Source: Polynucleobacter sp. IMCC 30228 (GTDB lineage: Bacteria > Pseudomonadota > Gammaproteobacteria > Burkholderiales > Burkholderiaceae). Taken from it: DNA of 64,000 bases. The notes under the pieces are model-generated. The model made no database searches, had not been told where the DNA came from, and saw only the letters and a list, made by a program, of their open reading frames with translations. The position numbers and the translations under genes were made by a program. Numbering within the stretch: the stretch's first letter is position 1; the number at the start of each line of letters is the position of its first letter. This document shows positions 48,134 through 50,058 of the stretch, in pieces. The stretch covers positions 248,001-312,000 of the forward strand of contig NZ_JAJVCS010000003.1 of NCBI RefSeq assembly GCF_021395205.1, written 5' to 3'.

Positions 48134-48886
48134 ATGCAGTTAAATGTCACTATTTTTCGTAAGCCATTTTTGCTGCCGTCGTTGCGGCTGTTGGGCTGCT
48201 TGAGCTTGTATTTTGCTTTGGGCCTAGGAATGCCGATTTATTCCCTGGCTCAAACCCCAGTTTATGAGCTTGATGCCATTAAGGCAGCTAAATTTAATGA
48301 TGTGAGGGGGATGACAGCGTTGTTACAGCAAGGTTTAATTAGTCCTAATATGCGCGATGCCAAGGGCACACCCCTGTTAATACTGGCTTTAGACGACCGT
48401 TCTATTGAAGTTTTGTATCTTTTAATGGATTCACCAGAAATTAATATCGATGCCACTAATCGAAATGGTGAAACCACCCTAATGATGGCCGCGATCTTTG
48501 GGTTAATGCCTGAAGTGAAGTATTTGGTTGAAAATAAAGCGGCGATCTTTAATCAATCTGGGTGGACGCCATTGCATTACGCGGCATCATCTGGTCAAAC
48601 AGATATTGCTACCTATTTACTTGAGCAAGGCGCGCTAGTGAATGCACTTTCTGAAAGCAATACAACGCCCTTAATGATGGCCGTGCGTTCTGGCAATATA
48701 GAAACCGTAAGCGTCTTGCTCAAGAACGGCGCTGATATGCAAATAGTGAATCATCAGGGCTTTACGGCGATTGATGTAGCTGATTTCTTTGGGCAACGCG
48801 AAATTAGTGAAGGGCTTTCAAGTCGCTGGCAGAAGCTTTATAAGCAAAAATATACCCATATGGTGGCGCTGCCGCAGAGTAAGTAA
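48134..48886 (+). CDS. Secreted ankyrin-repeat protein
   Basis: 250 residues. A hydrophobic N-terminus ending SLAQTPVYE suggests export to the periplasm. Residues 45-220 contain about five ankyrin repeats, with tips such as NGETTLMMAAIFGLMPEVKY, GWTPLHYAASSGQTDIATYL, NTTPLMMAVRSGNIETVSVL and GFTAIDVADFFGQREI. The last repeat ends in a basic helix. Ankyrin proteins after tatD occur in several Burkholderiales. Partner not known. It is two bases downstream of tatD, so probably in the same operon. Confidence 0.9.
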   Translation: MQLNVTIFRKPFLLPSLRLLGCLSLYFALGLGMPIYSLAQTPVYELDAIKAAKFNDVRGMTALLQQGLISPNMRDAKGTPLLILALDDRSIEVLYLLMDSPEINIDATNRNGETTLMMAAIFGLMPEVKYLVENKAAIFNQSGWTPLHYAASSGQTDIATYLLEQGALVNALSESNTTPLMMAVRSGNIETVSVLLKNGADMQIVNHQGFTAIDVADFFGQREISEGLSSRWQKLYKQKYTHMVALPQSK

Positions 48887-48990
48887 CATGGGCTTAGCCT
48901 AATCTATTATGCGTATAATCATTATTATGTCAAATAAGAAATAGATCTTCTTTTAATCCCGCCTAACCCTTACCTTCACTGCCACTGCTC

Positions 48991-49494
48991 ATGCCTGAGT
49001 TTCTAAGCAATCTTCCCAATATTGTTCATCTATGGAATGAGATTGCTGTTGATTTGGTTAGGCCTGAAATGAAGTTTATGATTTTTGTGGCCGTGCTGGT
49101 AGTGTTAATCCATGGCATGCTTGTACTGCTGATCATGACGGCCTTTCATCAGATCAATAAACACAATATTAATCGTTACCAAAAACAAGTGGATGTCTTG
49201 GTCTATTTCTCAGTTATTTTATTGATCTTTGTAAGTCATTTACTGGATATCTTTATTTGGACCTATGCCATGGTTAACCTAGAGGTCTTCCCCAGCACTT
49301 TAAAAACCTTTTATTTTGCGGGGGAAATGTATACCAATTTAGACCATAACGACCCCAGCTTTAAGCTCGGGCCAAATTGGAATATGTTGCCCATTTTGCT
49401 GTCCTTTTCGGGCTTATTTGCAGTGGCCATTTCTGGGTCAGCGCTCTACACCTTATTAGTATCCACCTTTACCAGGCCAAATAAAGATGAATAA
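48991..49494 (+). CDS. Channel-like membrane protein with a degenerate pore loop
   Basis: 167 residues with three hydrophobic spans (about 28-51, 70-96 and 132-157). It aligns along its whole length with the next gene product: LDIFIWTYAMVNLEVFPS and KTFYFAGEMY match IVLWTYALIPLNIFPS and ETFYFAGEMY there. At the site where the neighbour has TVGFG this protein has TNLDHND, so no potassium filter is possible. It may be a regulatory or heteromeric partner. No signal peptide. The gene starts about 105 bases after the ankyrin gene and ends 12 bases before the second copy. Confidence 0.72.
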   Translation: MPEFLSNLPNIVHLWNEIAVDLVRPEMKFMIFVAVLVVLIHGMLVLLIMTAFHQINKHNINRYQKQVDVLVYFSVILLIFVSHLLDIFIWTYAMVNLEVFPSTLKTFYFAGEMYTNLDHNDPSFKLGPNWNMLPILLSFSGLFAVAISGSALYTLLVSTFTRPNKDE

Positions 49495-49506
49495 CACCCT
49501 AAATTA

Positions 49507-50058
49507 ATGGACCTACTAAACTACCTGCCTTCGCTGACTGAGCTATTTAAGCAAATATATATAGATATCGGCAATCAGCAAATCTATTGGATATTAGGTT
49601 TCGTTGGTTTGATGCTGACTTTTCATGGCGTCTATGTACTGCTCGTCGTTATTTGTTTTAATGCTATTCGCAGTTGGCTAGTAGATAACTATCGCATTGC
49701 CGGCCATTATATTTATGGCTTTCGGTTAGCCGCCTTTGTGGCTTATTTTGTCGCTATTGTGCTGATTATTTTAGGGCATCTGATGGACATTGTGCTGTGG
49801 ACTTACGCCCTAATTCCACTCAATATTTTTCCCTCGAATCCAGAAACATTTTATTTTGCTGGCGAAATGTATGTCACCGTAGGATTTGGCGGCTTTGAGC
49901 TTGCTAAGAGCTGGCGAATACTACCGATTGTGATTGCCTTCTCGGGCATCTTCGCCGCCTCGATGTCGGGAGCAGCTTTGTTCAATATGCTGGGTACTCT
50001 AATAAGCCGGCGCACTAACTCAGCTAAAAGTGCCGATATTAATCTGCCCGCTGCTTAA
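49507..50058 (+). CDS. Two-helix potassium-channel-like membrane protein
   Basis: 183 residues with hydrophobic spans about 27-50, 73-100 and 137-162. Between the second and third lies a pore-loop-like segment ETFYFAGEMYVTVGFGGFEL, in which TVGFG (residues 124-128) is a potassium-channel selectivity filter signature, followed by a final helix with FSGIFAASMSGAALF. This fits the Ion_trans_2 architecture of outer helix, pore helix, filter and inner helix, with one extra N-terminal span. It has no cytosolic regulatory domain. The third-span C-terminus is short and basic (SRRTNSAK). It overlaps the convergent DUF3108 gene by 20 bases. No assay evidence exists, so ion selectivity is an inference. 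Confidence 0.78.
   Translation: MDLLNYLPSLTELFKQIYIDIGNQQIYWILGFVGLMLTFHGVYVLLVVICFNAIRSWLVDNYRIAGHYIYGFRLAAFVAYFVAIVLIILGHLMDIVLWTYALIPLNIFPSNPETFYFAGEMYVTVGFGGFELAKSWRILPIVIAFSGIFAASMSGAALFNMLGTLISRRTNSAKSADINLPAA

Follow-up and report, generated by a model that had tools for sequence, protein, structure and literature searches.

A potassium-channel relative with a replaced selectivity filter, usually encoded beside a filter-bearing paralogue, in Polynucleobacter

We analyzed a 64,000-nucleotide stretch of the genome of Polynucleobacter sp. IMCC 30228 (hereafter, the window), in which two adjacent genes, termed A and B, encode small related proteins downstream of an ankyrin-repeat gene and a dif site (Table 1). 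Both open reading frames reported by the first-pass annotation as tandem three-span genes are present; they are separated by 12 nt, and their products match each other at E 9.7e-31 in a pairwise protein comparison. The AlphaFold2 models of the two proteins follow a common plan: an N-terminal helix precedes three long ones, and a short pore helix sits ahead of the last. In the model of A, the long helices span residues 25-58, 65-96, and 133-160, with the pore helix at 103-115 (mean pLDDT 88.3, pTM 0.82), and the C-terminal end extends 7 residues past the last helix. In the model of B, they span residues 25-62, 69-105, and 139-166, with the pore helix at 111-123 (mean pLDDT 85.7, pTM 0.78). A and B are paralogues, each with three predicted spans plus a pore helix. 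The positive-inside rule, applied by eye, would make the C-terminus and the loop that joins the first two spans cytoplasmic, so that the pore loop would lie towards the periplasm, as in K+ channels.

Table 1 Coordinates of the features at the channel locus, as positions in the window
Feature	Position	Strand	Evidence
Ankyrin-repeat gene, across dif from the channel pair	48134..48886	+	Pfam Ank_2 3.4e-29; synteny
Chromosomal dif (XerCD) site, upstream of the pair and outside the channel system	48908..48935	+	dif-layout pattern, single copy, GC skew, XerD half
Gene A, predicted three-span channel-family protein with replaced filter	48991..49494	+	167 aa; ORF, 37% identity to B, AF2 model, orthologues
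A residues 115-122, TNLDHNDP, at the site of TTVGYGD	49333..49356	+	Invariant in 12/12 distinct A proteins; codon changes synonymous only
Gene B, predicted three-span potassium-channel-like protein	49507..50058	+	183 aa; ORF, Ion_trans_2 18.0 bits (E 0.0027), AF2 model
B residues 124-128, TVGFG filter	49876..49890	+	Sequence; G-F-G or G-L-G in 15/15 B-type rows

Alignment of the wider family (91 rows) also revealed conserved positions away from the pore loop, namely two intramembrane histidines (84/91 and 85/91), an acidic residue (82/91), and a tryptophan (85/91). In A, residues 41, 83, 86, and 90 (49111-49113, 49237-49239, 49246-49248, and 49258-49260) are such conserved family positions. 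Judged from the helix ends in the models, the histidines of the first two spans may be at about the same membrane depth, and they could serve in metal or haem binding, or in pH sensing.

The first-pass annotation had taken the pair for paralogues of a potassium-channel-like family with a pore helix, an assignment that homology to K+ channels and the pore helix predicted in both proteins bear out. The search against Pfam Ion_trans_2 that it proposed succeeded at the level of the family, 63 of whose 91 members match this model at E <= 0.01 (best 9.9e-12), and failed for the two proteins taken alone, since the score of B is under the 22.5-bit cut-off and A has no match. Similarly, B as a single query against solved structures gave nothing useful, whereas the family profile did find K+ channels in the PDB, including Shaker (E 8.8e-4) and Kv1.3 (E 0.0012), with the profile string YttvGfgd aligned on TTVGYGD of Shaker. 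KcsA chains were weaker in this search (E 0.023 and above), and two unrelated kinds of molecule appeared in it at E 0.13 and above. NCBIfam holds no model for the A/B family, and two members match one of its K-channel models at 2.5e-4 or worse. Comparisons of the predicted folds were less discriminating. Foldseek against solved channels returned E values above 0.3 for both models (above 1 for A); the A model fits the KirBac3.1 pore at 2.4 Å over 94 residues (Z 8.4), with designed helical bundles scoring higher (Z 12.1), and the B model fits K+ channel pores at Z 8.0, again with designed helical bundles higher (Z 12.5). At the level of models, these fold searches agree weakly with the K+-channel assignment.

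The filter of B is of the TxGYG/TxGFG type and follows the pore helix, exactly where it had first been read. By its homology to filter-bearing members and the pore helix in its model, A falls within the P-loop superfamily, and its clade is placed inside the family tree; the K+-selective signature is missing, as none of the 12 distinct A proteins has a G-x-G filter. As judged from sequence, the A/B family is a three-span, P-loop, potassium-channel-like family found in most Polynucleobacter. B and most of its paralogues fit the plan of the pore-only K+ channels of Ion_trans_2 (PF07885), in which two helices surround a pore helix and the filter reads TxGYG/TxGFG. The A/B family differs from these in its extra N-terminal span and its conserved intramembrane histidines, and A differs further in lacking the signature filter. 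Remote relatives on rhizobial plasmids are annotated as ‘potassium channel family protein’ or ‘ion channel’.

The TxGYG filter is among the most conserved motifs of ion channels. In A it is swapped residue for residue, TTVGYGD becoming TNLDHND, and a two-residue insertion follows: GEMY-TTVGYGD and similar strings of relatives at the locus correspond to GEMY-TNLDHND in A. As first described, the string T115 N L D H N D P122 is bracketed by two conserved flanks, TFYFAGEMY and MLPI.LSFSGLF, and it is the same in 13 genomes. The first of these flanks, a pore-helix string, is identical in A and B, and both the pore helix and the inner helix of A are kept as in its GxG relatives. The first filter glycine is present in all 79 non-A rows of the alignment (A1), odd-filter paralogues included, and is Asp (D118) in 12/12 A rows. 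The glutamate ahead of the filter (E112 in A, which we take to be the equivalent of KcsA E71) is found in 12/12 A rows and 55/57 GxG rows and is lost in all 22 other odd-filter rows, indicating that the change in A differs from theirs and that the scaffold behind its filter was retained. The 15 B-type rows all have G-F-G or G-L-G (two VTLGLG, the rest VTVGFG or TTVGFG), so the expectation that TVGFG would be conserved holds for the G-x-G form and not for the exact string.

We detected A in 13 of 186 Polynucleobacter genomes, the window's own genome included. The gene was not found in the other 173, some of them incomplete (42 of the 186 fall below 90% completeness or exceed 5% contamination), and this absence would make its function dispensable. 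Among matches with a species name, the closest comes from an assembly titled P. meluiroseus (91% identity in A). Beyond the genus, 150 genomes of the family Burkholderiaceae (genus included) yielded only two remote matches of 21% identity, neither with the motif (L066, L067). None of 26 non-genus loci from 300 genomes of the order had an A-like filter (the 26 do not include another three weak hits that had no locus); the filters there read TLGYGD, TSLGNGD, TTLGATN, and similar. Among 369 genomes of the class, the A profile recovered its own genome only. A search of genome contigs gave 10 A loci, labeled Polynucleobacter, Burkholderiaceae, or uncultured beta proteobacterium, together with two remote paralogues. 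In the genomes searched, A was found only in Polynucleobacter, and the suggestion that the pair would be conserved together across Burkholderiaceae therefore does not hold.

The arrangement of the two genes is regular. In 12 of the 13 A genomes, A precedes a GxG gene, with the partner's filter being VTVGFG, VTLGLG, TTVGYG, or TTVGFG. The distance from the stop codon of A to the start of the partner is 1 nt in 4 of 11 measured pairs and 8 to 64 nt in the others, a spacing suggestive of a common transcript and, for some pairs, of translational coupling. The exception is Polynucleobacter sp. AP-Melu-500A-A1 (G030; loci L116, L136), where A stands alone with its stop codon near the end of the DUF3108 gene. 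This genome is listed as 99% complete, and a genome profile search found no GxG family member in it at E <= 1, only A and two members, of the TAMGFM and TTVGFA types. In the reverse situation, five genomes (G048, G241, G300, G214, and G316) have a B-type gene directly after the ankyrin-repeat gene at the same locus without A; in G298, the contig ends at B. Judging by these loci, A/B pairing is usual and not obligatory. Obligate pairing, and with it an obligate form of the hetero-oligomer that the first-pass annotation had suggested, is contradicted by G030, which is a single genome and hence a single event.

The surroundings of the channel gene are shared well beyond the A genomes. Of 22 GxG loci, 21 have tatD and the ankyrin-repeat gene as neighbors of the channel gene, and 19 have DUF3108 (gene names by Pfam); further GxG and A loci have the same gene order, which is old, and A is inserted into it as an additional gene immediately ahead of the GxG gene. 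In a quick tree built without the filter columns, the A rows form one clade (SH-aLRT 98). The nearest group to A in this tree consists of F-type GxG paralogues that some genomes carry at other places (support 95, long branches). A direct duplication of the adjoining gene is not borne out, as the tree joins A to these F-type paralogues and not to its neighbor; A is called an extra copy at this locus on the basis of its position. On a tree of neighboring genes from 44 hand-chosen loci, the presence of A requires 6 changes, at least 5 of them forced by supported branches, and such patchiness would reflect repeated loss or exchange. A mobile origin was rejected: A had no match in 50,697 phage records, its exact back-translated motif was absent from the viral contigs, and its plasmid relatives, on three plasmids, are only 22-26% identical.

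The replaced filter is under tight constraint. The sequence GEMYTNLDHNDP is intact in all 13 A genomes, though identity to the window's A drops to 56%, and MYTNLDHNDP is likewise present in 13/13. Once aligned, the 12 distinct A proteins (one genome's A is identical to another's) are invariant over residues 111-122, and these 12 residues are the longest invariant run in A; a run as long arose in 19 of 20,000 column shuffles. The codons of this stretch vary at synonymous sites only. Since the same replacement occurs in all 13 genomes and the longest invariant run falls on the swap, the coincidence is more than chance. Pairwise dN/dS, in the five species pairs computable for both genes, was 0.060, 0.064, 0.064, 0.061, and 0.028 for A and 0.100, 0.081, 0.092, 0.097, and 0.098 for B, values that are rough, as dS is as high as 1.4 in some pairs and four genomes account for four of the five. 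A is below B in all five pairs; a sixth pair gave 0.046 for A and was saturated for B. By this estimate, purifying selection is stronger on A than on B. No internal stop occurs in any of the 13 A rows. The longest non-synonymous branch of A is that of G030 (dN 0.058 for G022-G030, 0.074 for G030-G267, and 0.034 for G022-G267), so some relaxation is possible in the one genome that keeps A alone.

Filter-swapped relatives of K+ channels are, in our assessment, already known. NirBac1.1 and NirBac1.2, which carry foreign filter sequences, assemble into stable oligomers that conduct Na+, K+, and other monovalent cations without K+ selectivity, whereas Ca2+ did not pass through NirBac1.2 (PMC4607889). 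Their hosts are Anaeromyxobacter and Gemmatimonas (PMC4607889). A resembles NirBac in being a bacterial K+-channel relative with a non-canonical filter loop and the rest of the pore kept. It differs in several ways. NirBac is a two-span KirBac homologue with a cytoplasmic Kir domain, whereas A is a 167-residue three-span protein without one (no Kir-domain Pfam match in A). In A, the flanks of the swap are kept and a single replacement sequence recurs in 13 genomes; the loops of NirBac1.1 and NirBac1.2 bear no resemblance to each other. Finally, A usually lies beside a filter-bearing paralogue, and no other obvious K+ channel gene is reported for Anaeromyxobacter (PMC4607889). The original verdict that A “cannot form a filter” and has a dead pore is not supported as it stands: the loop is the most conserved stretch of A, purifying selection exceeds that on B, and NirBac1.1 and NirBac1.2 are described as conducting.

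On these grounds, A probably serves as a pore, or as a subunit of one, with an unusual ion preference and is not a dead copy. Our preferred reading, put forward tentatively, is that A is a filter-swapped channel subunit kept by selection, which would form a working cation pore without K+ selectivity. The sequences show homology, a single clade of A, an invariant new filter, purifying selection, and, in one species, retention of A where no GxG partner is found; the tetramer, conduction, selectivity, and physiological role are inferred from them. In the proposed mechanism, B, the ordinary family member with a G-x-G filter, most probably forms a K+-conducting homotetramer. A is the extra upstream copy, its filter replaced position for position and its pore helix, glutamate, and inner helix retained; as a probably co-expressed pore with a filter lined by Asp, His, and Asn, it would lack K+ selectivity and pass monovalent cations besides K+, and perhaps divalent ones. 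The loop residues Asp, His, Asn, and Asp would bring eight aspartates into a tetramer, which suggests a weak preference for K+ and perhaps divalent binding; since NirBac1.2 did not pass Ca2+, divalent passage by A is a guess. We favor a conducting A pore for the strict conservation of the loop, the retention of A without a GxG partner, and the NirBac precedent.

The main alternative, only somewhat less likely, is that A acts as a modulatory subunit in a mixed A/B tetramer, in which one to three of the four strands would read TNLDHND and K+ conduction would be lowered, altered, or gated by ions at the Asp/His ring. A lies directly upstream of a filter-bearing gene in 12/13 genomes, the gap never exceeds 64 nt in the 11 measured pairs, suggesting co-expression, the two proteins share the string TFYFAGEMY, and A lacks a GxG neighbor once, with B-type genes standing without A in five genomes. 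The 12/13 adjacency, taken with the 1-nt gap in 4/11 pairs, fits a mixed complex as well as a filter-swapped pore, or better. However, a GxG gene occupies the syntenic locus in most of the genus, so adjacency is to be expected and is by itself weak evidence for a hetero-oligomer; G030 keeps an intact A with otherwise only TAMGFM and TTVGFA types; and the partner's filter varies by species, whereas that of A is constant. In animals and plants, K+ channels also have silent or modulatory subunits, which as a rule retain a GYG-like filter. Like them, A could modify a conducting partner to which it is related; unlike them, it has no GYG-like filter and, in one genome, no GxG partner.

Asp and Asn are the L-residues best able to adopt the glycine-like left-handed backbone. 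A new type of filter, in which they stand in for the glycines and A works both alone and mixed with B in a filter of two strand sequences, is conceivable on this basis, and we regard it as doubtful. Less probable still is a non-conducting sensor or anchor, whose Asp-His-Asn-Asp loops would coordinate a divalent metal or close off the mouth, with signaling through the helices or the periplasmic face of the protein. The replacement of both filter glycines, the first of them otherwise universal in the alignment, the acidic and histidine residues that could bind metal, and the very strong conservation of the loop would suit such a role, but the pore helix and inner helix are retained as in GxG relatives, Pfam detects no fused signaling domain, and the ankyrin-repeat neighbor is present also where A is not. 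That A is a decaying duplicate, as its patchy presence might suggest, is hardly credible and is contradicted by its dN/dS of 0.03-0.06, lower than that of B, its invariant 12-residue run, and its uninterrupted reading frame.

The filter-swapped pore that we favor would thus extend a known theme. As far as we searched, a three-span family with a residue-for-residue swap fixed in 13 genomes and an intact filter-bearing neighbor is new, and a literature search of open-licence PMC found no paper on a filter-swapped channel pair in Polynucleobacter. Here, a small channel family has exchanged its filter residue for residue and fixed the new sequence under strong selection, with an ordinary paralogue, mostly next door, as a natural control. 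Proteins of about 170 residues make it testable what a glycine-less filter passes and whether a bacterium builds tetramers with mixed filters. An absent signature should not be taken as a dead pore.

Further odd-filter family members occur in Polynucleobacter, with filters reading TTVGFV/I, TAMGFM, TTLGDF, TTIGNT, and TTIGSNN (L003:1465-1950; L034, L039-L043, L046-L052, and L071-L080). Going by these sequences, diversification of the filter in the genus is wider than the A/B pair.

An ultra-conserved element lies 55 bp upstream of the channel pair. Its 24-bp TATAATCATTATTATGTCAAATAA occurs exactly in 108/186 genomes of the genus, in one copy each bar one assembly with two, and the window's own genome has one copy even when 3 mismatches are allowed. 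A dif-layout pattern, drawn up after the site had been seen, matches the window once with 1 mismatch and none of 100 shuffles, and the cumulative GC skew of the window peaks at this interval. The XerD half, TTATGTCAAAT, equals that of the Burkholderia mallei chromosome 1 dif (PMC2731167). From its layout match, GC skew, and XerD half, we conclude that the element is the chromosomal dif site, and its presence at this spot accounts for the conserved DNA upstream of the pair. We considered TATAATCATTATTATGTCAAATAAG as a regulatory site for the channel (promoter, leader peptide, or operator) and rejected this, as it is a single copy at the turning point of the GC skew and fits a betaproteobacterial dif. 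The site is exact even at loci where the channel gene was matched only in fragments or frame-split (L038 in G023, L045 in G017, and C22 and C37 of G053). At A-bearing loci, the 180 bases ahead of B showed no second dif copy of the kind that a Xer-integrated element might leave behind. Across the genus, the channel gene adjoins dif in the loci read.

On the far side of dif, the ankyrin-repeat gene is syntenic with the channel gene, also where A is absent. By eye, the N-terminus of its product resembles a signal peptide; the protein is probably exported, and it is a possible periplasmic partner of the channel.
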